From Circinella minor (Eukaryota > Mucoromycota > Mucoromycetes > Mucorales > Lichtheimiaceae), in contig JAEPRB010000148.1 in the NCBI GenBank assembly GCA_016758965.1, positions 37,813 to 101,812 of the forward strand: a DNA stretch of 64,000 bases, in the 5' to 3' direction. Shown here in pieces: positions 32,393 through 55,801 of the stretch. Position 1 is the first letter of the stretch, and each line of letters starts with the position of its first letter. The position numbers and the translations under genes were made by a program. The notes beneath the pieces were generated by a model, which ran no database searches, was not told the origin of the DNA, and was given only the letters and a program-made list of their open reading frames with translations.

Positions 32393-34742
32393 CTAACGAC
32401 CAAATTGAAGATAAAAGTTTACAATAAGTGCACCAACCAGAAGAATACATAATACAATGGGCCCCCATAAATCATCATACCGTCCAGCTATGCGACGATT
32501 GATCATCCTATAGAATAGAAAATTAGTTTAATTAGTTATCTATATCTAACAAGATCAAGATAGCTTGGAAACAAGAATAAAATTATCATCTTACCAAGCA
32601 CGCTTTTCAAATCGATATAAAGCATATAGCGCAACAAGAGCAGCGATACAAATAAATATACTACCGGCAATTTTAGCTGCCCCATCCCCAAAATTGAGCA
32701 AATTGAGAGCTACCATGAGAAGCAGACCACAAAACTGAAGCCAACTAATAAAAGTACGTTCATTGGCAAAAAATACCTTTGGCTCAACCTTGACTTTACG
32801 CAAGGGGATCACACCACCATTTGTAGCAGAATTCTGTTTCATCACGTGCTGTTGGAATTGTTCTTGCCATTTTGCAATAAATCCTCCTCTCTTTCTACTA
32901 GCAGTGTTTATAACAGTGGTGGATTGCGGTACTAATGCTCGACCCTTTTTATTTATATTATTAACATTATGGTCATCTGTATCAACTGATTGTCCAAGTG
33001 TGATTTGATGATACTTTTGTTTTTGTGGTGACCAAGAAGAAATTAATGTCCTTTTATCTGTAGAGGAGCTAGAATCACTTGTAGAACCATCCTGTTTCCC
33101 CCTCATTGAAGCAACACGTATACGTTTATGTTCAGTAGCCATAGCGCTTTTAAATAAGTATTGGCCATCCATTAAAGGCTTAAAAGATGCCGATCGAGAC
33201 AATCCAAATTCAGTATCTCGTGGTTTTAAAATATCAGCCGCAAGTTCAGAATGCCACCATGGAAGTAATGGAATTTTATCTTTATAAAGTATCGAAGCTA
33301 ATAAAGAATAATACAGTTTTATATATTGATTCTTAGATTCATTAAGCAGTAAAATTTATAATAAAAATGGTTGTGTTTATGCCACAAAGCACTCATATGA
33401 TATAGAAAACAAAACACTAACCTCCATGCAAATATTTCGAAAATCGGGGAACTTCATGAACTAAATGTGACTCTACAAGTCGACTGAGCCAATCAGGCAT
33501 AGCTTGGCCAAGATGTGTTTGTACTTTGGTTTCCAGAACAGCATATGGGAAACGAAGGACTTCGTCTTCTTCTAAATATGGGAATGGGTAGTCCACACCT
33601 ACATCAGGTCTGCGCCAATAAGATTTGTTATTTTCCTTAATAAATGTCAAATCAGTATCAAGACTGACTCGTACACGTTGATCTTTGGGTATTTGAAAAG
33701 CGGTTCGATTATAAAAGACCCGCAATGTAGATTTTAAATTTTTGTTTTTGATTGAGTCTTGTACACCATTGGCAACAAACATGTTTTGCTGTTTACCCTT
33801 ATAAGGCGTACCAGCAAGATAAGCAGGTACTTCATCGACATTTAGTGGAAACCGTTCTTTCAGCGATCGGAAATCATCTGTCCAGGGAGCATGGTGTGTT
33901 TTACGTTCAATGAATAATGGATTAGATTTCATATCCCCGTACCACCGGATACGGATAGCTTCAGCACCTTGATCTCGCTGTAACCGACCTTCATACAATT
34001 CAAATTGAGGATTGTCCATATAAACACTTGAAATTGCAGAGTCCGTCTCCTTGATATCCATTTTGGTAGTTGTGTCTTTACCAAAAATATATACAGGTAA
34101 ATGAAGCATAAGAATGGCTTTCACCTCAGTAACATTATCTGGATGAACCCAATACTTGGCTGTCGCGCGTTGGAAAACCCCATCATCTTCGTTGTTATCT
34201 TGCGCATAAGGGGATGGAGTCCGGGTGCCACGGCATATATCATGAAGAGCCGAAATGTAGACAATGGGGACATCAAATCGTTGCTTATCCAAAGGGTTTT
34301 CACGCATTTTAGGAACAAAATTTTCATGTAATCGGTAATCAGTCCATTTATCATGTTTTTTGATAATCTTGAGAAATGCAGTATGATTGAGACGGGTAAA
34401 TTTGGCCAAATCATTGACATCAAACAATGCTTCTGTCAAAGTGTCATCTACCATTTGACGCTGAGATGTTGATGCTGTTGTAGGTGATGAAGTCGTAATA
34501 CGAAGTGTCTTCTCACAATAATTGATTCTTGCTTCCACTTCAGCTAATTTAGCAGTGACAAAATCGTATACTTTGTCCAATTCAGTTTCGAGGATATGAG
34601 CAAATTCTTCTTCATCTTCACCAGTCCATCCGAATTCACTAAGCTGACGTCTTTTAAGCTCATGTTTGAGATAGTCATATTGAACATAGTAATGGCGCCA
34701 TGGAGAGAAGACGCGCTCGTTAAGATGGTCCCCGAACTTCAT
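32393..34742 (-). CDS. VTC4: Vacuolar transporter chaperone, catalytic polyphosphate polymerase subunit (VTC4-like)
   Basis: Three exons on the minus strand, 34742-33422, 33297-32595 and 32507-32393, giving 712 residues, close to yeast Vtc4. Order: SPX domain (MKFG start, and the basic helix FLKIIKKHDK that in the family binds inositol pyrophosphates), the VTC tunnel domain (about 195-480), a linker, and a DUF202 membrane domain (from about residue 614, FFANERTFISWLQF, three transmembrane helices). Residues matching the yeast catalytic set are present: R..R in AIRIRWYG, K in FIERKTHH, R in NRTAFQ and RVRVSL, E in AVLETKVQ, K in RFSKYLHG. The complex makes polyphosphate from ATP and moves it into the vacuole. 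It lies downstream of a second VTC gene on the same strand. Confidence 0.93.
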
Positions 34743-35719
34743 TAGTGCTAACTGTTGCGTTGTAGGATGGAAATTCTAATGAAAAATGGAGAAAGAGAGA
34801 AAGAGAGAGATAAAGGTATTTGTTGTTTTTAAGAAAAGGTATAAAAGCCCAGTAAATTATAAATTGGTTGATTTCTTGTGCTCAGTTGAGACAGAAGAAA
34901 AAGATTGATTTTACTTTTTTGCTATTTTAACTTCGCCACAACATTATTCACTAACAAAACTGCCAAGGCTTCACAAGAAAAAGTCAAATTCAGCTAATAT
35001 ACAACAGAATGCAGGGCGGCATGAACCGGTATCCGGGCTTCATTATGATGTTCCTCCCTCATTTGTTTTTTATCGCCGACTCTAATGTACGTATGTATAC
35101 TACATAAAATTTTTGTCAAGTTCAGAATTGGGTTCATTATTGTTTTCTTCTGAATTTTCTACTAGCTTATTCCTGACACTCCAATTGTACACTTGCTGAG
35201 CATGTCGTGCTTTTTTTTTGACTTTACTGTTTTTAACTTGGATAAAAAAAAATCATCATTTTTTAATATATCACAGCTTTGTATCACGCTGACAACAAAA
35301 ATAACACCTTCTTGTGCTATATATATATGAAGGGTCAATCGTATTTAACTATGAGCTAATTATAACCCCCTTTCCCACTACTGGGGAGTATACACACATT
35401 GTTTGTGATACGTATAGAAGAACAAGTAACTAGGGAATGTTTCTATTCTATATTATGTTTATTACTAATACATAAATGGCAAATGTAAAATAAATTTATG
35501 AGTTGCATGGATTGGGGATAATTTATTATATATATATGACAATTGATGATTCAATAACCTCGTCCTGGATTTTGTTGTTGAGTACTATTATTAATACCAA
35601 GCCATGAAGTGGTAGAGTTTGGACTCGTGTATCGTAAAATAAAGTTCAGCTGTTTTTATAAAAAAAAAAATAAGAAAGTTAAAAATATAGCATACTGTAA
35701 ATGAAGTATATTTTGGCCG
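34743..35719. other. Intergenic region between the two VTC genes
   Basis: Presumed promoter of the VTC4-like gene (GA-rich tract 34783-34815) and 3' region of the upstream VTC gene. No gene recognised. Confidence 0.55.
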
Positions 35720-37819
35720 TTACTTTTTCTTCCTATATGTGCAAAAGAAAATCGCTCTTACCACCAAAGCACCAACAAGCAAAATGCAAAGTCCGATAGG
35801 CCCGTAAATATCATCATACCGTATATGAGGCCGAGTTCTAATTTGATGTGTACGATACCGAAATCTACCATATGCATAAAGTGCGATGACAAGCGAAATA
35901 CCAAAGAATACACCACCAGCAATCGTACTGACTCGATCGCCGAAATTAAGGAGTGTCAGGGCCGATACCAAAATTAATGCAGAGAACTGTAACCAATGAA
36001 TAAATGTACGTTCATTTGCAAAAAATACTTTTGGTTCCAACCAGGGCGCTTTCTTGTTTTTCTTTTTTTCTTTTTTCTCTTCTTCTTGACGATCTTGTTG
36101 GTTTGCAAGCAGGTTGTCATCATCATCATCTTCGTAAATTGACAACCCACCATATTCGAGCAAAACTTGTTCTTCTTGATTATTATTATGTTCATGTTGT
36201 TCTTGCTGACTTCGTCGGCCTCTTGCACGTTGATAAGCCCCTTCTTGCTCTTCATTATCTTGCCAAACCGGATCATAGAAAAAGTCTTTATCAATACTAA
36301 TTGATTCATGGCGCACCGAAGAGAACATGTCTTCCTTTATTACTGGTCTTTCACTGGTTCGGACTTGTGGGTATTCGAGTTCATGGTTAAGATATCCAAG
36401 AGGTTCATCCTCAGGTCTGAGATTTTTTGAATGAGTAAACTCGTTAGCAGATAAAAAGCCTCTAAGCTGTCGTGCATCTCGAATATCAATACTCAGTTCA
36501 TTCATCCACCAAGGCAACAATGGGATATCTTGTGGCCAGAGACACGCTACGCCATGTAAGTATAAAGAGAAGGAAGGGACTTCGTAAATTAAACCATCAC
36601 GAAGCAACGTTTTTAACCAATCGACTTCATATTCTCTTGGATTACCATTTAATGTAGCTTGTAGTATTGCATATGGTAAATTATATTTATTATTCCCATC
36701 ACCCGCAAAGCAAATATTTTGATCAAATACCACTTGATCCTGAAACACAGTACGTTCACTTGACATACACATAACCGGTCGTAACTGTTTTTCACTGATG
36801 GACTTTTGGATTCCTGATGCAATGAATCCTAATGTACGTCGTTCGACATCTGTAGTACACAAATCGTTTACAGCTTCTTCAGCAGTATATTGAAAAGACA
36901 AAAATTGCTTTACTTTATCGAGTGATTCGAGTCGAAAACCATCAGTAACTGATCGTTGCTCGTTCATCCACCCTGCGTGATACGTTTCACGTTCCAAAAT
37001 AGCATCTTTAGAAGCACTAGCAAAATGTTTTATTCTAATTTCTTCTGCTCCTTCGTCACGTTCAAGACGCCCTTGATAAAGTTCATATTGTTGATTATCA
37101 AGAAAGTTTATCGTTGGTCGACTAGAACTGGACGATAAGTGAAAATGGAGTATAGCCAACACTTGAGTTATATTATCTTGATGTACCCAGAAGTGGACAG
37201 CCGTTGGTTCGTGCTGCCATTGTGGTTCTTTTCGTTCTTCCTTTTTGTGTTTGTAGTCTGTATTTGGTTCTATCGGTTGTTGCTGTTGCTGGTCTAATTG
37301 TTCTTGTTGCGGTGATTCTAGTTGCTTGGAAACAATATCCATAAGTTTTACTGTTTCAATTAATGTCACATCAAATCGTTGCCGATCCAAACGTTTTTTA
37401 CGTAAAATTTCCACAAGAAGGGGTAGTTGGCTACGTCCGGTAAGCTCGTCATGGTAGTTAATCAAATGTTGAAGTGCAAGTGCATTATGACGTGCAAAAT
37501 CAGACAATTCTTTAAGTTCACAGTAGACGTTATGAAGAGTTTCCGTGGTATGATAATTGATATAACTATTGCTATTGTTTGAGACTTTCTCAAAACTACG
37601 ACGACAGTGAGCAAGTGTTGATTCAAGTTCACGTTGCTTTTGTGTAATAAATCGATCCACTTTTTCTGCTTCATGCCAAAGCGATGCAACAAAACTTGAT
37701 TCATCTCTATCCAGCCAGCTATAGTTTTTGGCCTGCGTAGTAATATCTTGTTTAATCAAATTATATGAGACGTATTCGAAACGCCAAGATTCGTAAATAT
37801 TATTTGGTTGGAATGTCAT
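35720..37819 (-). CDS. Vacuolar transporter chaperone, degenerate regulatory subunit (VTC2/3-like)
   Basis: Single exon of 699 residues with the same three-domain order: SPX-like (1-165), VTC tunnel domain (about 205-480), a long Q/E/D/K-rich linker (about 520-600), and DUF202 (FFANERTFIHWLQF, three transmembrane helices). The catalytic set is broken: the FIERKTHH lysine is replaced (LERETYH), the AVLETK glutamate reads AILQAT, the RVRVSL arginine region reads QVVFDQN, and RFSKYLHG reads SFSLYLHG. Yeast Vtc2/3 are non-catalytic partners of Vtc4, so a regulatory role is likely. The SPX basic helix is also lost (LQHLINYHDE), and the start reads MTFQ, not MKFG. The lack of introns, where its neighbour has two, hints at an older split or intron loss. 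Confidence 0.88.
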   Translation of the reverse strand: MTFQPNNIYESWRFEYVSYNLIKQDITTQAKNYSWLDRDESSFVASLWHEAEKVDRFITQKQRELESTLAHCRRSFEKVSNNSNSYINYHTTETLHNVYCELKELSDFARHNALALQHLINYHDELTGRSQLPLLVEILRKKRLDRQRFDVTLIETVKLMDIVSKQLESPQQEQLDQQQQQPIEPNTDYKHKKEERKEPQWQHEPTAVHFWVHQDNITQVLAILHFHLSSSSSRPTINFLDNQQYELYQGRLERDEGAEEIRIKHFASASKDAILERETYHAGWMNEQRSVTDGFRLESLDKVKQFLSFQYTAEEAVNDLCTTDVERRTLGFIASGIQKSISEKQLRPVMCMSSERTVFQDQVVFDQNICFAGDGNNKYNLPYAILQATLNGNPREYEVDWLKTLLRDGLIYEVPSFSLYLHGVACLWPQDIPLLPWWMNELSIDIRDARQLRGFLSANEFTHSKNLRPEDEPLGYLNHELEYPQVRTSERPVIKEDMFSSVRHESISIDKDFFYDPVWQDNEEQEGAYQRARGRRSQQEQHEHNNNQEEQVLLEYGGLSIYEDDDDDNLLANQQDRQEEEKKEKKKNKKAPWLEPKVFFANERTFIHWLQFSALILVSALTLLNFGDRVSTIAGGVFFGISLVIALYAYGRFRYRTHQIRTRPHIRYDDIYGPIGLCILLVGALVVRAIFFCTYRKKK

Positions 37820-38117
37820 GAAAGAATGAAATTATGTTACGGCTGCTGTTTAAACAGAGAGAGAGAGAGAGAGAGAGCGAGGAAAACAAAAAGAAAGACA
37901 AATTGGGAGAGGAAAAGGGATAGATCGCTAGCACTTTGAAGTCGGGGAAGGTAATCGAAAAATAGATCAACCTCTTTTTTATTATAATTATATTTCAAAG
38001 TTTAATGTGTTTATATTAAGAACTTGTGCAACAATAAAGAAAACCTGCGATAATTAATCCGCTAACTGGGGGCCCATCTTCTTCAATTATTCTTTTCCGA
38101 GACATATTTCCTTTTTT
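37820..38117. promoter_or_regulatory. Promoter region with GA microsatellite upstream of the VTC2/3-like gene
   Basis: A (GA)n tract at about 37855-37877 lies 36 bp upstream of the minus-strand start at 37819. The 298-bp gap also takes in the 3' end of the upstream methyltransferase gene. GA tracts near starts are common in fungi; regulatory function is inferred. Confidence 0.4.
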
Positions 38118-41100
38118 TTAGATTTTCTGAAACACTAAATACGTAGCATGAATAATTTTTAAGTGTTCATCGACAACGTCCACGTCGATATCTTCTTCAT
38201 TCCCGTTTTCTTTTGCTGTAGTAATAAAGGTAGTAGTTGTATTTGCAAGGTTAGGTTGTTGTTCCAATATATCTTGATGACGATCCTTGGAATATCCATC
38301 TGGCACAGCTATTATCATTTCCTTGAGTTTAAGTACACTTGAATCAAGAGTGCGTTCAATGTCTTCCATGACAAGCATTCCTAGAGGCCATAGTTTACCG
38401 TTGGGCGATCGAATGTCTTGTGTGCCAATGATAAGCATGCCTTGTGGTGCTAGTTTTTCAACGGCTTCAACTGCAAGTTTAATAAGTGTTTGACGATATA
38501 ATCCAATATGATGAGCGAACAAATATGGAAGGTGTGCAATGACCATGAGACGAAGTGGTGCATTTTTGTCTTCTTGAGCTGGCTTACGCATCATGGTTTC
38601 ATAATGCATAATATCGGTTGAATCTTCACTAAGCTCGGATATCAATCCCTGTATTCATTAACAAGCAGCAATATAAGGTAACTATAACATAAGTAAATAG
38701 AAAAAAAACAGACGCTTCAAGTTTAAAAATGCATCAATAAAAAATCATTACCAATTGAACAAGTGTACGTGTATTCTCTTCAATTCGCTTTAATCGTTGT
38801 TGCTCATATTCAGAAAGCGAATTTTCTTCATCTATGTCTTTCTTGCTTTGAGCTTGTTTTTCAACAGATCTAGATTCTAATTCTTCAACTTGTAACAAAT
38901 TTTGAAGCTTTATTGTTATAAATAGTAATACAGCTTGTTAGTTATTTTGAAAATGAAGGGTATATTTTATAAACTAGAAAGAAAAATCGTTGTTACCTCA
39001 TATTGTGAAATAAAATCTAATTCTACTTGGATCCAGTTTGTATCATCACGACCGAATCGTTCTACCATACGTGACATACAAAGTTGATCAAATCGATAAT
39101 GGTCAGTTGGCTTAAATACCCACACTGTTCCCATAACGACGCTTTTACGAGCGATAGCTGATGATGGTACACCTCTTAATGTCTTAGTTACTTGTACATG
39201 ATCAATGGACTCTTCTACAGCAAGAATAATTTTAGCACTTCAAGAACAATAAAAAAAATGTGTATTATTCTTTATAAACAAGCAATTACCTTCTAATGAT
39301 ATCATACGGTCGACATTTTCCTTCGGAATTTTACGAAATGTTGCAATAAATTCATGAGTAAACACCAAAAAATCAAATTGCACACACAAATAAGTACCCA
39401 ATCCAAATGCAGAACAATAGCGTTGTCGTTTAATAATCTATATATAAATTTATGTTTATGTATAAGAGACTATCTAATCATATACTAATATATTATATAT
39501 GAATAGAAACTGTTAGAAAACAGAGTAACATTACCAATTCTTCTAGTTCAAAGCCATTATCAATATATTGTCGTATTAAGTGATATCCAACAGGAATATA
39601 AAAACAATGTTCTCGATTATCACCAATACCTAGCGTCAGCCTTCTCCCCATTTTTAATACCCTATCCAAAAAAAAAACGTCATGATTTTAAAACACACAT
39701 TAAAATTATCCGAGACATTAATAACTTCTTTTCTCTCTTCTACTCTCATCAATATTATTTTACCTCCAACTTTCATGGACCACCTTGATATACTCTTCTT
39801 TAAAGTCTTCTATATTAGTAAATCGAGATAAATCACCATCTAAATGAGTGGAATATGCAACACAGTCTTTATAAGGTGGATGGGATAAAACATGATGAAA
39901 TGACTCATCATTAAATAAAGGTCCTGTGAGATGACGTGAATCAGCCTGTGCAACAATAGGTCGGTATTCTGCAGATGTCAATCCAGGTGGTATTTCGAAG
40001 CAACAATTTCTTTGCGATAATGCAACAGCAGCCTGGATAATATATATATAATAGAATTAAATAAAATGGTGTACACAACTGAAAAATTTACTTCTGTTTA
40101 GAAACAAGGTCGGACTTACGGGATTAATATCAACACCACAACATCGTCGTTGTAATAAGAAGCATTCGATAGCATCCGTCCCTAAAATAGATGATCGTTT
40201 TTTTTTAATAATAAGTTTCGCTTATTTTTATGTTGTTGTTACTATAATTACAGGTCAATTAGGAAAAAATATTACCTCTCCCCAAAAAATTTGAGAACAC
40301 ACGCTCATCTTTTTCGGTGTGTTTCAAAATAGCCCTAAGATCAATTTCAATTTAGTTTTTCCTTTTGGAATAATCCACAAATTCTCCACAGAATTTCCCT
40401 TCTCTTTAACAAACTACCCAAAAACACAGAAAATAGTATATTGTAAAAGAATCTTTTTTGTTGTACTTACCTTCGCACAGTTTGAGGTAACCATGTTCCT
40501 ATAAATAGAAAAGTAATACATGTAAACTTCAGATTATACGATAAAGTATATCATTTTCATATACAGTGAAAAAAAAATAGATTACCATGATAGTCAGTTC
40601 CCGAATGTGTAGCCCATCGAGGTGCACGACCAGGAATATCATAATATGTAGAGTCGAATATAAGTGAAAATAACTGGTGAGGCTGAGGTTCATAAGTTGG
40701 CAATCGAATTCCAGCTGTTGCAGTAAACTTGGTGGATGATAATGCATCTCTTGTAAGATAAGGTTTATGTGTATATTCTTCTATCAATGTGACATATTTA
40801 TCACGACCATTCTCATCAATTTCTCTCTCATAATCTGGCTGTAATTCATTGTCGTTGTTGTTGGTGCTACTGCTACCATCATTATTATCTACAAGCAAAG
40901 CCACTTCAAAACAAGGTCGGCACATTATTACACCACCATCATAGCCTTTTCGCCATTCTTCTGCTTCTTCTGTGCCACAATAACAACATGTTGTAATCGG
41001 TGCATCACCCGCCCGCTTCCGTCGTCTCCTTGGAAACAATGGTTTTTTCCTTTTCGCTATAAATGGAAACTCATGAGCATTCCTCTATTCATGCAAAATA

Positions 41101-44100
41101 AGAAAAAAAAATTTCTTCGGTACCTGCTGATAACTCTTTTGCCAATGCTGTTTCTCTTGCTTTTTCAGCCTCCATTTCCTTTATGATCGCAAACGCTAAT
41201 CCATATATTTGTTATTAAGTACGTAAGAATTGATATATTCATTAATGTTGCATATATATAACTTACATGTTTCTTCAAAATCATCTTGATCATGTGGATG
41301 ATTATATTCCGGTAATTTTTCAAAGCACTGAATATATATATATATATAATTTTTTAATTGTTATATTGGGATAGATTATTTTCATACAAAAGAAAAAAAA
41401 TTGTACCTACCTCTGCACAGAGATCGAACGATGAGAAGTAACCAGATGCACAAGGTAAACATGTAAACCATGACTCATCTTTCATCTGTATATTACACCC
41501 ATCACATTTGAAAATATTTACATACGTATCTAATAATATATATAGTTAGATTAATGTTGTTATAGTTACAAAAAGATAGATGAATTACATTTGTAAATTA
41601 AAGAATTCAAATATCTTTCTTAATGTTCCTTTTTCACTGTACAATGCATTAAAGACATCAGATCAGCTCCAAGAGAACGTTTTTTTTTTTTTTGGTTCTT
41701 ACCTTTTTTATTATAATATGCTTCATGTGTTGGACACCAAAAAATCACACCATTACGAAAGTAACTAACGGGTTTCTGGGCGCATGGCAAATGAAAACTT
41801 TTTGAACATCGAGAATCGAAACATCCAATAGTTGCTCCTTTTTCTTTGCACCCAAAACAACGCTATTTTTATATATTAAAATAGTATAGTAGATTCAGTT
41901 ATAGCCCAAGTTTTCATAGTTTTCATCACGCTATTACGTATACTTTTTTTTATACATTTTTGATCAATCAATCAATCAAAATATTCTAAATAACTTACCA
42001 TACCACGACCACGGCGAAGAGCTAATGTAACATTATACCACTTTCCTTCAGGTGTACAAAATACTTCAGGGGAATAACGAGCACATGCATCATGTGCCCA
42101 AAACTGTCGTTTACGCTCTACACCATTCTTGTTATATGTTGCAATCACAAAAGGTCCAATAAATTGTCCCAATTCAGTAGATGTATCATCATCATCATTA
42201 CAAAATGCACATACTTTACGTCGTTGCCATCGTTTTAAATATTTATACCCTTGTTCAGCTGTGTTAATGGCAGCATCACCTGTAAAGACTTTACTGGCTT
42301 CTTCAATTTCTTCATGTGGATGCTGATTTTTAGTAGTAGTATCATCATTATTCTCATCCACACTTTTCGCTTCTTCATTATTATTATTGTTATTATTATT
42401 ATTATGAGGGAACTCATCAATGACATCTTCTTCCCAAATCGTAACAAGTTCGCCCTTGATTGGCATAGGTCCAATTTCAGAATTGATGACCGCTTGAACT
42501 GCAAAACTGGAACGTGGATGATGATGCCAGAATGGAAAATTTTGATCAAAGCACCTTTTGTCGCATATATATAAACGTTTATTATTAGCCATACCAAACA
42601 TAAATTGTTTTTTTTTTATTCTGCTTCATATGTACATGTAAACATTACCTAAGACAAAGCTCAAAGCTTTCGTAATCATAACCTTCAGATGGTGTTTCGC
42701 AGTAGGTACAATAATATCGAAATTGTTTAATAACAACATTACATTGGTTGCAGTAGACTTTCCAAGCATCAATCTCTGTAGTCGATAATTAAAACAAACT
42801 AGTATAAATTATTCATTCTTTTATACCAAAAAAATCAAAACGGAAGCGAGGAAGGTATAAAACACATAATGTAAATTACCTTCAACATCTGATCCAGCTT
42901 GTTCACCTTCTTTATGATATTCAATTCCTTCATTAGACTCATTATAAAGTCCTTCAGATAATGTTCGACGTCGACTATTTCTTTTTAATACCATTGAACG
43001 TTGATTTTCATCCTGTTCCACTTCTTGGTCATTATTGTTTCTCGATTCCAGTAAAAGTGCCTCATACCGTTCCTTAAAATTAGGCTCAGCACAAATGACT
43101 TCATGTGGATTTTCTATCATTTGTAACCGGCGACTTCCCAGTGGAATATATTCGTCAAATTTATCCACCCATCCACAATAATGAATTCGTACTCGATTTC
43201 GATCCATTCGAACCAATCGCGCCTCATACCATTTTTTATCAAGATTTAATACTTGAACATGTTGCATATAATCATATCCATATACGTTGGCCACAAATCC
43301 ATGGTCGTCTGCACTTGTCAATCCGCCACCATGACGAAGTAATGCTGATCCGGATCGAATTCTTTGCATTTGTTCTTGCTGTTTTTCCAACATTGCTTGA
43401 GCTACAGCTTCTTGTTGTTCTTGTTGCTTTTTTCTTCGCTTACTTGCTGATATAGGTTGTCGCCCGCGTTTTCTTCCTCGTCCACGGTGATGGGTGACGG
43501 CTGTAGTATAATCTTTTTCGTAATCACTTGTTGTCTCTTCGTTATCTGATGATCCTGGAGAATCAGGTGGATAGAATGCCGCTGCTTCATGATTTTCTGT
43601 ATTTTTTTCAGAAGATTTTGGTGATACTAGTGGCTGTTCTGTGGCAGTAGCAAGTGTAGTATGTGCATTGGTAGTCGGATTAGGGGACTTTTTAGATGGT
43701 CTACCACGTCGACGTAATGGTGGTTGATTCGTAGGGACTAAATATCCCAGCTGTTCATAGTCTTCGGGCCGTATGATACGAGGTACATGTTTCCTTTTAG
43801 CTAGATCTTTGAGTTCTGGATTCATTTCAGTAGCCATGATAAGATCCGAAGATTTTGTTGCTGGTTGAGCAGATTCTACTGCTCTTGTTGTTTCCGTTGA
43901 TGTTGTTAATGGTGACTCATTTGCCACGGCAGTCTCATTATTAACACTAATATTATTGCTGTTCTCTGATAATGATATACTTGGTGCAGTTTCCACAATA
44001 CTAGCAGGGCGTATACGACGACTTCCCACCATAAACCATTCATCATATATTTCACTCCATCCGTCATAACGCACTTTTACTTGTCCTGGTTTCATCGCAA

Positions 44101-47100
44101 CCAAATGTCCACGTTCCCAAAACCGTTTATTTTTAGCTGTTTTAGTATTGAGTACTTCAATAGGTTGATTGTATGTATAACCATATGGGTTTGGAACAAA
44201 TCCATGCTCATCTTTAAGTTGTCTCATTGCACGACGTGTAGCAAATGCGCCGGTGGTCAAAAAACATTCTTCTTTTTTTTTGAGAGACGAAACTGACTTT
44301 TCTTTTTCATGCAGTTCTTGTATTGGTGGTAACACAGTGGGTAATGATAATGATTCATTTTGATTCTGATCTTGATTTTGGGTTGTTTGTATATTTTTGG
44401 AAGGTTTTGGTTTTTCTCCAGGTAGAGGATATTTTCGTGGTCGTCCACGCTTTCGCTTAGGTGACTCCTGTGTAGCTGTTTCTTCCGTCATTTTTGTTAC
44501 TGTAGTTTCTACTATTGGCGTTTCTGTATTTTCTGTCGTTTCTGTAGTAACCAATTCCTGTCTTGTTACCTTTTCTGGTATTTCTGTGGCAATCAAATTT
44601 GATGCTGGTGCTTTTTCTGATCTTTTTGTGGTAATCAATTCTGCTGCTGCTGCTGCTGCTGCTGAAGGTGTTAATGCTACATTTGTTGATTTCTTTTTTT
44701 CTTTTTCGACGTTTACTTTTTTATGTTTCGATTTATGCAGTTGAACATTGGTAGATTGAGCTTCTGTAACTTTATGTCTGGTTGCTGATTGTTCCTTTCT
44801 TTTTGGCTCTTCTTCTGCTACAACGGGCACAACTGGCGGCTCTATCATCTGCTCTTTGAGAACTTCTTCTTCTTCTTTTGTGAGCAAACGCAAACGACGA
44901 CTTCCAACTACAAGCCAGTCTGATTGACATAATGTCGGATACCAAATGCGGATTTGATTTTCACGCATTTCCCGTAAATAGCCCAAATATTCAATTTTAT
45001 TGCCCCTATATCCTTTTCTTTTGGATCCTTGTTTAAATGCCACGGCAACGGCGCGATTATGATGGTACCCGAAAGAGTTAGCCCGAAATCCATGTTCATC
45101 CGTCAGCTGTCTTGCCATGCGACGAGTTAAAAAAACTTCATTGTCATTGAAAATTTGATGTGGATCTTTATCCAGTGTCGCACTGACATAATCATCACCC
45201 ACGTTTCTAGTCTTATTTTGAACATTGGAATGCGGTAAGAGAGGGTCTTCATAAAGCTGTTTATTCACATTTTCATTATCTATTTATGTGACATAAGAAT
45301 AAAATGATTAATTGAGTGTTTGCTTTTTTTTCCTCCAAAAAAAAAAAAAAAACCAAATGTGAGCTATTTTCTTTCTTTACCTGTATTGGATGACGACAGT
45401 GGACTCAAAGTCTTTTCATGCTCTCCTACCACGGTAGCAAGTTTATCATGTTTTTGTTCAGGGTCTTCCTTTGAACCATAATTATTTTCTTCTCCTTCTT
45501 CCTCTTGTTCATCATCAGCATTATAAATTCTAATTCGGCGACTACCCATCTTAATCCATTCTTCTTGATCCTGCCAATCCGAATAAGCTACTTTTACTTT
45601 CGACGCTTGCATCATGGTAAGCACACCACGGTACCAATGACCATTGATATTGAGGACTTCCACTTTCTGTTTTCGAAGATAACCATATGGATTTGGATGA
45701 AACCCATCTTCTGGATCAGCAAGCTGTTTAGCAGTGTTACGTGTCATAAACGCGCCCGTCGTTACATATTTGTCAAGACGAGAGCGGGATGATATTGATG
45801 GTGGAGGTAGAACCGCAATATCTTTTTTTGTTTTTTGTTTCTTCTTTCGTTGTTTAGTTCCCACTGTTTTTCTTTCTTTGGCTATGGTTGAATGACTTTG
45901 GTTTTTATTTTGATAATTCACATCTGTTCCTGCTGGTAATGAAGAAACTGGGATATTCTTCTTTTGTTGCTGTTTTTGTCGTTGTCTCTTTTTCTTAACA
46001 GCACTAGTATGATCACATTTTTTTTTGCCCATAATTTTTTCCATCCAGCTGGTTAATTGTTCAGCCCATTTATTTTTACACTGCGTACATATCCAATCTG
46101 CTTCCATAGGACCTGCATGTTCATCCCTTAATGATTCACAACTTGTGCATATTTCTTGAGCCATTTCTTCATTCCATGGACCCAAAACATTATCTTCACT
46201 TTGAAGGGAGCTTAAGGAACTAAGATCATCATTGTCATCGTCATCAAATGATAACAGCTCATCTATATAATCTTCATTGCTAATATACTCTTGTTGGTGT
46301 CGCTGAACTGGTAATGGTTTTGATGGTGATGATTCTAAAACAACAGAAGTATTGGACACGGGTGTTAAGAAAGGGGAAGAAGTAGATTGTGGCTCAGTTT
46401 TGTTATTGTTGTTATTTTTTGGTGAAACAGGTTTTTCATGCTGTTGTTCATCAATATTAGCGGTGATTGAATTTGAAACAGGAGAGTCGGGCAGCATCAG
46501 CTTGCCAACAGAATCTTTTGTTGTTGATGTTGTTGTTGTTGTTGTAGATGATGACTTTTGCGTGCGAAAATAACTATTAACAGGTTTATTGGGTATTGAA
46601 GATAATGATTTATTTCCCTTGACGAGTAATAGCTTACCCATAAAACTACCAAATTTTTTCTTTGAAACAATTTGTTTTTGGGACGATGACGTCGGTGTTG
46701 GTGAAAGCGAATTATTCGGAAAAGTTGTTCCGGTATTTCCAGTAACGCAAGTATCAACGCGTTTCCATGGTGGTGATGGGTGTACAGGTGTTTCATTTTT
46801 TCTTATTGTTGATGATGCCGATCGTTCGGATGGAAATGGAGAAGATGGTGGTTCTTTCGTCTTGTTAGATGATGAAGGTGAAGGTACCTGATATTGTTCT
46901 TCGTTTGGCAATACGTAACCATATGAATAGTACTCATTTTGTTGATGAGTGAGATCATATGACTGCTGCTAAAAAATAATAATAACGCGTGTGAGTTGTC
47001 AAAAAAAAAAACTTTCAAAAAATAATATTGTTTTGTCTTTTGTTATTACATTATAGCTATATTGTTGATGGTAGTAGTTTATCGCGTTTGAATGATAATA

Positions 47101-47404
47101 CTGCGCGTCAGGATAGTATTGATAATGATAATTCAAATGATTATGAGTGTGCCAAGGTGGTACTACTGTGTGATGCTCGTTTGAGCTATTGGTTGACGCT
47201 AGAAAAAAAAAATATTATTATTTTTTTGGCTGTGTCAAAAAAATAACATGACATGAATAGTATTTTTCCGAGGAAAATATACTGTTACTTACATGATAAT
47301 GATGATGGGGACAATAGACTGTTATTATTGTACTGAGCTAACTGCCATGAAAATGCATTTTCGTCGGTCATCTTGGAAGAAGAAGACCCCGAAGATGGTG
47401 CCAT
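38118..47404 (-). CDS. Giant chromatin-reader protein with C-terminal DNA amino-methyltransferase domain
   Basis: Twenty exons on the minus strand join in frame to about 2,470 residues: 47404-47293, 47198-47050, 46968-45381, 45279-42880, 42775-42649, 42554-41999, 41862-41703, 41529-41411, 41327-41267, 41195-41124, 41056-40586, 40498-40471, 40334-40276, 40181-40120, 40032-39764, 39661-39535, 39437-39290, 39214-38997, 38907-38752, 38648-38118. Order: CxxC...CxxC module (~361-385), four Tudor-like repeats (~490, 660, 955, 1272), AT-hooks (KRGRPRK ~892, RRGRPSK ~1138), ZZ (~1420-1475), extended PHD (~1572-1690), ZZ (~1706-1755), GATA-like finger (CYCGTEEAEEWRKG, ~1803), then the methyltransferase. 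Motif I is FLGRGT (1964-1969) with GVDINP, motif IV is HPPY (2039-2042) within the pattern PPY..xVAYS...GDLS typical of bacterial N4/N6 DNA methylases. I infer SAM-dependent DNA N6-adenine or N4-cytosine methylation in the nucleus; RNA is a less likely substrate given the readers. Starts at the only ATG before exon 2. Confidence 0.85.
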
Positions 47405-51285: not shown

Positions 51286-53020
51286 ATGAGAAGTATAGGA
51301 ATGGCAGATCGACGTTCAGTGCTTTTCACTGTCATCTTTACTCCCATTGTACTTATATTACTTATTCTCGGTTGGCAACGAGGTGGTCTTAAAAACGACG
51401 AACAACTTGAATCTCCTCCTCCTACTACTACTACTACTACTCCTCCACCAGCTGAAACTGGAATAATAGCACCTCCCTCACCACCTTCTCATGTAAACGA
51501 TCCCATTGTTGCTGGCTATTTTGTCAACTGGTATTCTATTAATTTTCATGTATAATTATTATTAATACCAATAAGTATAAACGAATGAAAGGAGGAACAA
51601 ATTACTTATTACTATTATTATTAGGGGCATTTACGATCGAAATTATAACGTTGTTGATTTACAAGCTGAGAAACTTTCTCATGTACTTTATGCATTTGCT
51701 AATCTTAATGACGATGGAACTATTGTTCTTGGGGTAAATAATCAATATAAAGAAAAAAGAAGAAGAAGAAGAACGATTATTTACTTTTTTTTATTTATTA
51801 TCGACTTTTAAACATGTTTATTGTTTTTTGTAGGATCCTTGGGCAGATACGGATAAGCACTTTCCTGCAGGTAAAAAAAAAATATATTTTAACAGCTAAC
51901 AATTTATTATTAATGTTTATTAATGGTTTATTTACTTCTTTATTTATTTATTTTTAGAACAAACAATTAATAAAAAAGCAGATGATTGGAATGAATCAGG
52001 GGAAAACTTATATGGCAACTTTAAACAATTATATCTTTTGAAACAAAAGTATCGACATTTAAAGGTTTCTTTAAGTGTAGGTGGATGGTCATGGTCAGCT
52101 AATTTTTCAACTGTAGCAAGTACTCCTCAAAAACGTATCCGATTTACCGAAACAGCATTATCTCTTGTCAATAATCTCGGGCTTGATGGCATTGGTAAAA
52201 ATATTTATTTATCAAATAATATGGAGGGGAGAAACAATACTAGAATGAACAAGAAAATAAATAACAAACTTTGTTATATTCTAATTTAGATATCGATTGG
52301 GAAATGCCTAAGGATGATACAGAAGCAGCCTCTTATGTATCACTTGTAAAAGATTTGCGAATAGCTCTTGGTCCAGATTATCTTATTTCTGTCGCTGTAC
52401 CTTGTGGACCAGATGATTATAAAAAGCTACACCTATCAGAAATGGCAGCTCAAATAGATTTATTTTATTTAATGGCCTATGATTATGCTGGTGCATGGGA
52501 TCCTGTAACTGGTCACCAAGCAGCATTATACGGAGGTTCTTTAAATAATGATAATGCTGTCAACTATTACATCAAATCAGGTGTTCCTGCAGAAAAGATT
52601 GTATTAGGTATTCCTGCCTATGGTCGTGCATTTTCCAAAACGGATCAAAAACCGGGTTCACCCTTTGATGGTGTTCCTTCAGGTACATGGGAAGCTGGAA
52701 GTTATGATTACAGAGTATTACCAAGACCTGGTGCCGTAGAACATTTTGATTCTGAAAAAGTGGCATCTTATTCCTATGATCCCAAAAATCGAGAATTTGT
52801 TACTTATGATACACCTGAAGCTGTCAAGGCAAAATGTGAATATGCTCTTGAAAAAGGTCTAGCTGGTGTCATGTTTTGGGAATTAAGTGCAGATGCTAAA
52901 ACACAAGACCGTAGTTTATTACATACTGCTTATACTACTTTTAATAATCAAATTCATTCTACTTTGAATCATATTGATTATAGTTCAAGTCAATTTCAAA
53001 ATATAAAAAGTGGCATGTAA
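51286..53020 (+). CDS. Membrane-anchored GH18 chitinase
   Basis: Five exons, 51286-51530, 51625-51733, 51834-51870, 51958-52194 and 52290-53020, give 452 residues (447 if the ATG at 51301, which has the better context, is used). The N-terminus has a short basic tail, one hydrophobic segment (VLFTVIFTPIVLILLILGW) without a clear cleavage site, and a Pro/Thr-rich stalk, suggesting a type II membrane anchor. The catalytic (beta/alpha)8 domain starts at VAGYFVNWGIYDRNY, has the SxGG motif (SLSVGGWSW), the active-site DGIDIDWE with the catalytic Glu, and closes with MFWELSAD. GH18 enzymes cleave chitin; a cell-surface position would suit wall remodelling. It lacks a chitin-binding module. 244 bp separate it from the permease gene. 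Confidence 0.9.
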
Positions 53021-54192: not shown

Positions 54193-54225
<33 letters not shown>

Positions 54226-55801
54226 GACTCACACATTTTCAGGGTTATCAATTACGTTTACTTACAATTATCTTTTTGTTTCTTCTACTTATTAGCCATG
54301 GTCTGTTCATTATTTGAAATTTTTATGAGTTTCTTACCACCAAAAGTATTGAAAAAACTCTTTCCTCCTATAGTCAGTGGTACCACCATCTTTTTAATCG
54401 GTTGTTCTGTCATTAGTACTGCTCTCAAAGATTGGGCTGGTGGTTCTGGTGCTTGTTCCAGTATGCCTGAATCAGGTCTTTATTCCATGTGTCCAGATAC
54501 AAATGCTCCTCATCCATTACCATGGGGATCAGCTGAATTTATTGGTTTAGGATTCTCAGTTTTTGCTACAATTGTATTGGTTGAAAACTTTGGTTCACCT
54601 TTTATGAAGAGTGCACAAATTGTTATCGGTCTTATTGTCGGTATGATTGTTGCTGGTGCATGTGGTTATGTGGATGGATCAATGATTTCAAGTGCTCCTA
54701 TTGGTACTTTTACTTGGACAACTACATTTCCTATTACGGTTTATGGACCTGCTGTCATTCCATTCTTGATTGTTTATTTGGATAATATCTTGGAATCAAT
54801 TGGTGATATTACTGCTTCTTCGGATGTTTCTGGTGTAGAAGTAGATGGTCCTATATTCTCAAGTCGTATTCAAGGCGGGTTACTTGCTGACGGTGTTAAT
54901 TCATTGATTGCTGCTTGTATGACAATTAGTCCAATGGTAAATATTATATAAAAAAAAGGGACAAAATTTTTTTTTTATTTTGCTATGGAGTTGATCTAGT
55001 TACTATATATGTTATTTTCATGAGGTTCTAAGTAATATATGAATAATTATTATTAGGTTACATTTGCTCAAAACAATGGTATCATTGCATTGGTAAGTTT
55101 CTTTTTTCTTATTATGATATTTTTTTTTACAGAGGATTAAAATAACTCTAAATACATGTAATACTAATCATTTATATTTTTATACCTTGTTTAGACTCGA
55201 TGTGCTAACCGTATTGCTGGTTATTTCTGCTGTTTTTATATTGTTTTGTTTGGTATTTTGGGCAAGGTTTCAGCTGTCTTTTTGACAATTCCCAAAACTG
55301 TAAGTATAAAACAGAAAAAGGATACACACAAATGGCGAAAAGGAGAACAAAAAAAAAGTCTAAAATATGTTCATTTTTCTTTAGATTTTGGGAGGTTTGA
55401 ATGCGTATTTATTCGCAAGTGTTACTGTTTCTGGTATCCGTATTTTAGCCTATTTACCATGGACACGTCGCGATCGATTCATTGCTACTACTTCTTTAGC
55501 ATTAGGTCTTGGTGTTACATTATGTCCTGGTTGGTTCTCTCATGTTTTCACTTATAGTGGTGATAACGAAAATTTACTCGGTTTCCTTAGCGCCGTTGAA
55601 ACTGTTGTTGATACTGGTTATTGTATCGGTTCTTTGATGGCTATATTTTTAAATTTGGTTGTACCTCAAGAATGGGGACCTGAAACTATAAAAGAGTCAG
55701 ATGAAAAAAGAAAGAAGGAATTAGAGGAAATTCGCGAAGGATTTGTACAGACGAATACAAAGGATGATCAAGAAATTAAAGCGGAATCTCCACTTCCTTA
55801 A
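53265..55801 (+). CDS. Uric acid-xanthine permease of the NAT/NCS2 family (UapA-like)
   Basis: Eight exons: 53265-53562, 53673-53825, 53916-53982, 54057-54169, 54296-54936, 55057-55092 (36 nt), 55195-55299 and 55385-55801, total 609 residues. It is a polytopic protein with the family marks GFQHALAM in the first helix, ESIGDITASSDVS, and the signature QNNGIIALTR, split by an intron between L436 and T437. Cytosolic tails are charged (C-terminal DEKRKKELEEIREG). NAT carriers co-transport purines with protons across the plasma membrane; the closest named fungal members are UapA and UapC. Substrate choice between xanthine and uric acid cannot be told from the residues seen. Confidence 0.92.

Follow-up and report, generated by a model that had tools for sequence, protein, structure and literature searches.

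Does a single gene of the fungus Circinella minor couple the reading of chromatin to the methylation of DNA and, if so, where did its catalytic part come from? The gene in question lies on the minus strand, from position 47404 to 38118, of a 64,000-nucleotide stretch of contig JAEPRB010000148.1 (hereafter the window). A sequence-only reading had described it as a 20-exon, in-frame fusion of four Tudor-like repeats, AT-hooks, several zinc fingers and an extended PHD (ePHD) with a bacterial-type DNA amino-methyltransferase. Our analysis of the predicted gene confirmed the reader-methyltransferase fusion. We consider it likely that the gene, present in one copy, encodes a chromatin protein deeply conserved among early-diverging fungi and acting as a chromatin-steered DNA N6-adenine or N4-cytosine writer that is kin to prokaryotic HPPY restriction-modification enzymes.

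Gene structure and integrity

Splicing the gene from the sequence recovered the claimed exons and coordinates: 20 exons in a single frame, with 19 of 19 introns GT-AG, giving 2471 codons including the stop, that is, 2470 residues.

38118..47404, minus strand: whole gene (GT-AG splicing, one frame; exon-wise alignment to Circinella umbellata P0044)
47404-47293, 47198-47050, 46968-45381, 45279-42880, 42775-42649, 42554-41999, 41862-41703, minus strand: exons 1-7
41529-41411, 41327-41267, 41195-41124, 41056-40586, 40498-40471, 40334-40276, 40181-40120, minus strand: exons 8-14
40032-39764, 39661-39535, 39437-39290, 39214-38997, 38907-38752, 38648-38118, minus strand: exons 15-20

The closest protein was P0044 from Circinella umbellata (Mucorales, Lichtheimiaceae; 2426 amino acids; 97% over residues 1560-2470). 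Its global alignment touched all exons, 18 of the 20 being fully aligned on the window side, and gaps were confined to exons 3 and 4, both of which hold low-complexity stretches. When the genome (46.6 Mb) was searched with P0001 of Phycomyces blakesleeanus, which covers the protein from the ePHD to its end, all 10 matching stretches fell inside this gene. A profile search of the same genome with PF01555 returned no match, probably because the gene is split into short exons.

The gene structure is predicted from sequence, and annotation merges do occur, as in Parasitella P0120 (DUF202, VTC and N6_N4_Mtase in one protein), so that two separate genes might have been fused by gene modelling. We regard this as very improbable, however, since many species have the identical fusion in proteins that were annotated separately, and one frame was also found in P0026, P0034, P0057, P0090 and P0128 (carrying jgi, ena and lgn tags; gene-calling method unstated).

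The methyltransferase core

39318..40688, minus strand: methyltransferase core (residues 1905-2160; spans introns), with motif order X-like, I, IV; PF01555, PDLC03376 and invariant columns
39871..39885, minus strand: catalytic motif SHPPY (residues 2038-2042), frequent in relatives and invariant in 38 chosen rows

The claim of a bacterial-type DNA amino-methyltransferase held when profiles were run. The core scored over the curated cut-off of Pfam N6_N4_Mtase (PF01555; 46.5 bits against 26.7; E-value 5.8e-12), and matched the PADLOC Type II methyltransferase profile PDLC03376 (5.3e-37, 126 bits, profile positions 19-249 of 249, 240 of 262 residues). True PDLC03376 members score far above the fungal core's 126 bits (487 for a Fusobacterium enzyme and 328 for the Asgard archaeal enzyme L016). 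An NCBIfam scan of the core gave nothing close to its cut-offs.

In the spliced protein the motifs start at residues 1964 (FLGRGT), 1985 (DINP), 2038 (SHPPY), 2054 (GDLS) and 2091 (GDNR). The PF01555 profile and beta-class enzymes have the permuted order, with motif IV before motif I; here motif I precedes SHPPY. The pattern given by the sequence-only reading was located, although HPPY departs from the DPPY of bacterial N6-adenine enzymes and the SPPY of most bacterial N4-cytosine enzymes, as the part of the source seen describes them (PMC8885841).

SHPPY was present in 149 of 163 returned proteins, partial ones counted, and SHPPY, GRGTD, D.N and GDNR were invariant in the 38 chosen rows, which include Mucoromycota and Rozellomycota. 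The core was the best conserved of eight parts of the protein in 8 of the 10 relatives compared (ZZ-like finger 1 was higher in P0097; both ZZ-like fingers and the ePHD were higher in P0038), with 60-88% identity in compared relatives except P0034 and P0038. The predicted S-adenosylmethionine-binding and catalytic motifs are thus shown to be intact.

This conservation bears on the idea that the protein is only a chromatin or DNA-binding scaffold, its methyltransferase having degenerated. HPPY is indeed unlike the DPPY, NPPY and SPPY of studied enzymes, and a C-terminal copy of the fold (see below) has no catalytic motifs. HPPY is nevertheless normal in a prokaryotic group, that of P0043 (119 of 120 among the matches listed of a 556-protein search), and PDLC03376 relatives carry THPPY or AHPPY; together with the invariant columns, this makes degeneracy improbable.

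Which substrate family the core belongs to was addressed by its other matches. Among Pfam matches to E 1 there was no PF05063 (MT-A70), no PF02384 (the MetB family) and no THUMP domain. With HPPY instead of DPPW, the enzyme stands apart from MT-A70, as had been proposed. Trm11-type tRNA methyltransferases combine a THUMP domain with DPPYG; the motif here is HPPYK. The core does share the Rossmann fold with these enzymes, its top structural matches include the tRNA methyltransferases Trm11, TrmN and Trm14, and Trm11 has the same motif order, I before IV. It could therefore be an RNA methyltransferase (e.g. of tRNA or snRNA, at guanine N2 or adenine N6) that the chromatin readers recruit co-transcriptionally. 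In a PDB profile search the archaeal Trm11 5e71 came second (1.6e-5); the first match, however, was the putative DNA modification methylase 2zie (1.7e-7). The best protein family is one of restriction-modification, with kin adjoining restriction genes, and the sole RNA-methyltransferase match in Pfam (TRM5-TYW2, E 0.18) was under its cut-off. Aligners that keep chain order would also be expected to rank circularly permuted DNA enzymes low. We consider the RNA alternative unlikely, if less so than degeneracy. Overall, the profile evidence supports placing the catalytic half in a prokaryotic DNA amino-methyltransferase lineage, distinct from MT-A70 and from the layout of rotifer N4CMT.

A second methyltransferase-like domain

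38884..39155, minus strand: linker block with GTVW (residues 2190-2250; spans an intron), aligning to an Asgard TVW block
38121..38648, minus strand: C-terminal methyltransferase-like domain (residues 2295-2470, last exon) without motif I or PPY; profile, Asgard matches, structure model and fold matches

One methyltransferase core had been proposed, which stands; the second, motif-less domain after it had been overlooked. Its profile matched 144 of 164 rows. By its sequence, this domain is methyltransferase-like, predicted to be inactive, and common to the fungal family and Asgard archaeal enzymes.

The reader half

46066..46158, minus strand: N-terminal zinc ribbon CTSC..CTQC (residues 358-388); Pfam ADD_DNMT3 15.8 bits, under the cut-off of 26
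45496..45753, minus strand: Tudor-like repeat 1 (493-578); Pfam Tudor_4 and Agenet, both under cut-off; repeat alignment
44834..45136, minus strand: Tudor-like repeat 2 (665-765); alignment with the other repeats
44420..44464, minus strand: AT-hook 1, KRKRGRPRK; RGRP core
43994..44248, minus strand: Tudor/MBT-like repeat 3 (961-1045); Pfam MBT 1.1e-5, L3MBTL3 8e-6
43685..43723, minus strand: AT-hook 2, RRRGRPSK; RGRP core
43439..43492, minus strand: basic AT-hook-like stretch RGRGRKRGRQP, from sequence
43073..43324, minus strand: Tudor-like repeat 4 (1269-1352); PHF20L1 Tudor 0.0017, repeat alignment
42491..42755, minus strand: ZZ-like finger 1 (1424-1480; spans an intron); ZZ_ADA2 15.3 bits, under the cut-off of 27.5; kept in relatives
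41725..42214, minus strand: extended PHD (1573-1690; spans an intron); Pfam 6.4e-10, KMT2D entry 1.1e-9
41194..41509, minus strand: ZZ-like finger 2 (1705-1758; spans introns); cysteine pattern, kept in relatives
40905..40991, minus strand: GATA-like C4 finger (1804-1832); Pfam GATA 14.3 bits, under the cut-off of 26.8

The reader domains previously named were all recovered, with differing firmness. The six pairs of Tudor-like repeats scored 81-188, the highest of 200 shuffles per pair being 62. Pfam models over their cut-offs were zf-HC5HC2H (6.4e-10) and zf-HC5HC2H_2 (5.2e-9) for the ePHD, and MBT (1.1e-5) for the third repeat; Tudor_4 and Agenet on the first repeat, ZZ_ADA2 and GATA gave weaker matches. 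The two ZZ-like fingers and the GATA-like finger are conserved in kin despite missing the Pfam cut-offs. RGRP cores of AT-hooks lie at residues 894 and 1141. Among 114 relatives with at least 1500 amino acids, 53 have such cores, where about 3 would be expected from shuffled composition. The third and fourth Tudor-like repeats and the ePHD resemble the chromatin proteins L3MBTL3, PHF20L1 and KMT2D, respectively (the ePHD matched PHF7, PHF6, BRPF1 and Jade-1 more weakly than the KMT2D entry), and these Royal-family and PHD-type domains are putative histone readers.

Distribution in fungi

Searching with the methyltransferase half returned 43 proteins, and with residues 1560-2470, 147 proteins; the latter search needs shared five-residue words, and 120 of its 147 matches were listed. 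Among the matches listed, all named organisms were early-diverging fungi by name. Mucoromycota, Kickxellomycota, Chytridiomycota, Neocallimastigomycota and Rozellomycota were checked as lineages, and the other organism names were taken to be early-diverging fungi as well. The relatives include P0078 (MUCCIDRAFT_114945) of Mucor lusitanicus CBS 277.49. No name from Dikarya appeared among these 120 of 147 matches; since the search is word-based and 27 of the 147 rows lie outside the listing, this is a strong hint of absence, not proof. According to the part of the source seen, the protists Acanthamoeba castellanii, Cyanophora paradoxa and Naegleria gruberi have no PF01555 match (PMC12344493).

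Readers and core lie within one annotated protein in many species, and the combination is present in all five checked lineages. A crude pattern test found Tudor-like, ePHD and SHPPY signatures together in 51 of the 114 long relatives, which is likely an undercount, as the patterns are strict and the gene models variable. The Rozellomycota protein P0038 has the fingers, ePHD and core, whereas neither the Tudor repeats nor the C-terminal domain gave a match. P0163 of Piromyces has weak Tudor repeats and a core with 60% identity. The fusion, described earlier as separate and far larger than the rotifer one, is real and large; it is not peculiar to Circinella. Judged from these sequences, it is old and forms one fungal family.

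Prokaryotic relatives and origin

A tblastn search of plasmids with the core found a Fusobacterium vincentii protein (31% identity, 87% covered, 4e-32; three records matched); the phage collection gave no match. The Fusobacterium enzyme (L004:3926-4660) is a full PDLC03376 member with DpnII (4.7e-109) and Mrr_cat (2.3e-21) as neighbours. PDLC03376 enzymes share with the fungal core a near end-to-end alignment, the motif order, an HPPY-type motif, the WATH..GNWxP start and the GDxR block. The Fusobacterium enzyme differs from the fungal protein in being a stand-alone protein of 244 amino acids with restriction genes alongside, and in having no readers and no C-terminal domain. Five of eight viral-contig loci had long matches (L008, L009, L010, L011 and L012, the last with a truncated protein); the matches in the other three were weak and unused. 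The relative in L008 adjoins DpnII and that in L010 adjoins AlwI and a D12 methyltransferase, while L009 and L011 appear similar on visual inspection. DpnII recognizes GATC and AlwI GGATC.

The Fusobacterium enzyme itself matched 814 plasmid records, all but one below 60% identity (28-31% in the distant rows listed); 776 of the 814 are predicted conjugative, and many of the matches listed are annotated as DNA adenine modification methylase or restriction endonuclease subunit M.

In archaea, we took as centre the genome of Candidatus Borrarchaeum weybense, placed in Promethearchaeati, the Asgard group. The fungal profile matched 152 of 195 genomes of its phylum, many of the matches listed being short and around motif I. 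In 17 genomes matches reached 1e-30 or better (best 3.4e-75), and six extend well past the core, to profile positions 422-454. These six proteins (L016-L021, 497-553 amino acids) carry the core, the TVW linker and the second, motif-less methyltransferase-like domain, and align end to end with the corresponding fungal parts; they differ in size and in that no Tudor, PHD or ZZ domain was seen, although the starts of three look C2H2-like on visual inspection. L016 matches PDLC03376 at 1.4e-98 and is 56% identical to the Fusobacterium core. Around it (L035:957-12001) lie a SIR2-domain gene that is ThsA-like in PADLOC (with a STAND match under cut-off), a single-domain HPPY paralogue, a 450 amino-acid gene of no known kind, a GHKL ATPase and a third methyltransferase, of the N6_N4 kind; L020 adjoins a D12 adenine methyltransferase. 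We infer a restriction or defence setting for these two enzymes. Outside Asgard, two-domain forms were looked for in plasmids and phages, where none of the matches listed reached the C-terminal part.

Four of the six Asgard loci also have, next to the methyltransferase, a gene of about 340-380 amino acids with alike starts:

L018:1985-3010, L019:5-1150, L020:2699-3823, L021:3-1064: neighbour genes of about 340-380 amino acids

Three of these were scanned, of which one weakly matched NucS_C (18.8 bits, cut-off 24), and a partner nuclease is possible. A wider prokaryotic HPPY group (P0043, P0164-P0282) includes Asgard members, some of its proteins having helix-turn-helix domains. We rejected the P0043 group, both Asgard and bacterial, as closest kin, since it fits PDLC03239 best and the fungal core PDLC03376.

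The proposed phylogeny was run with bacterial and Asgard rows. In a 58-row tree rooted on three distant rows, fungi formed one clade (support 96/90), as did the Asgard two-domain enzymes (98/83) and bacterial single-domain enzymes (96/88); the groups persisted in a 45-row tree without long rows (fungi 94/96). With a fungal clade in both trees, a single origin in fungi is well supported among the rows used. Fungi did not nest inside the clade of Asgard two-domain enzymes; in the rooted tree they and the prokaryote rows made up two separate clades. With the 45 rows, an approximately unbiased test did not reject a clade that unites fungi and the Asgard two-domain enzymes (p 0.283). The fungal enzyme may thus descend from a two-domain form of archaea, as the shared C-terminal domain would favour.

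Neighbouring genes

Besides the fusion gene, the window holds 13 open reading frames of at least 220 amino acids. Ten were scanned, as unspliced frames, for a restriction endonuclease partner; the matches were to VTC, DUF202, GH18, permease and RGS, and four of the ten were matchless.

32591-37831, minus strand: genes with a VTC domain, and pieces of SPX and DUF202, directly downstream of the fusion gene
52265-53020 and 54193-54951: GH18-family and xanthine/uracil permease-family open reading frames, on the opposite side of the fusion gene from the VTC genes

The Parasitella protein P0120 (2216 amino acids) is named SPX domain-containing and carries DUF202, VTC and N6_N4_Mtase. As the same neighbours occur here, the two fungi seem to have the genes in the same order, and P0120 was probably produced by merging adjacent gene models.

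Comparison with known DNA methylation systems

The bdelloid N4CMT had been offered as a parallel. It likewise joins a PF01555 prokaryotic amino-methyltransferase to a histone reader, with the idea of reading histones and writing on DNA; as described in the part of the source seen, however, it is of the permuted subtype beta, with SPPY, a C-terminal chromodomain and a distribution limited to bdelloids (PMC8885841). The fungal protein instead has motif I before IV, HPPY and a large N-terminal reader, and belongs to one old fungal clade.

The MT-A70 complex of MTA1 and MTA9 also performs DNA amino-methylation with an active and inactive methyltransferase pair, although it is defined by PF05063 and DPPW and consists of separate subunits; PF05063 matches were found on three contigs of the Circinella genome, away from the fusion gene. 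MetB is a bacterial-type DNA methyltransferase in early fungi too; it differs in being PF02384 and MmeI-like, with no chromatin readers mentioned in the portion of the source seen (PMC11258239). One PF02384 locus lies elsewhere in the Circinella genome. According to the same portion, in Mucor MetB accounts for most asymmetric N6-methyladenine (6mA) and MTA1/P1 for all symmetric 6mA; the writer candidates were PF05175, PF02384, PF05063 and MTA1, with PF01555 not included; and gene deletion is feasible (PMC11258239). Deletions of metB and mta1 in Mucor lusitanicus have been published. In the part seen of a 2026 review, MTA1c and MetB are given for early fungi and METTL4 for Botrytis, and the fusion family was not found (PMC13297926); in that of a 2025 survey of eukaryotic 6mA, N6_N4 and N4CMT do not occur (PMC12695648). 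Titles and abstract openings in the literature yielded no description of the fusion family, an earlier mention being possible.

Proposed function and significance

For the chromatin-steered DNA methyltransferase that we prefer, the core would bind S-adenosylmethionine through FLGRGT and DIN, flip a base and methylate its exocyclic amino group at HPPY. The product would be 6mA or N4-methylcytosine (4mC), adenine being weakly ahead because kin adjoin D12-type and GATC restriction genes. METTL14 serves METTL3, and MTA9 serves MTA1, as a DNA-clamping partner; the motif-less C-terminal domain probably clamps DNA within the same chain, as a target-recognition domain of its own seems to be missing from the compact core. 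Docking on AT-rich DNA and on nucleosomes with particular methyl-lysine marks would fall to the Tudor-like repeats, the ePHD, the ZZ fingers and the AT-hooks. Both the histone-mark steering and the DNA methylation activity are what we infer from sequence. The fusion is a strong candidate for an undescribed DNA-marking route.

A fuller scenario, to which we give about even chances, is that of a third DNA amino-methylation system housed in one giant chromatin-reading protein, its two-domain engine, an active and an inactive methyltransferase in one chain, descending from a restriction-modification enzyme of the kind that Asgard archaea have today. Chromatin would have acquired it when fungi arose or earlier, and Dikarya would have lost it. 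In the literature consulted, the 6mA writers given for early fungi are MTA1, together with its complex, and MetB; for Dikarya they are METTL4-like enzymes. To these the fusion adds a third candidate, conserved among early fungi and bearing its own putative histone readers. It would be an independent second case in which chromatin readers are fused to a methyltransferase of restriction type, one that is older than rotifer N4CMT and far more widely distributed, and the two-domain form common with Asgard archaea makes its origin testable. If our reading is true, the protein would directly link histone state to DNA methylation in early fungi, and could reveal fungal 4mC.
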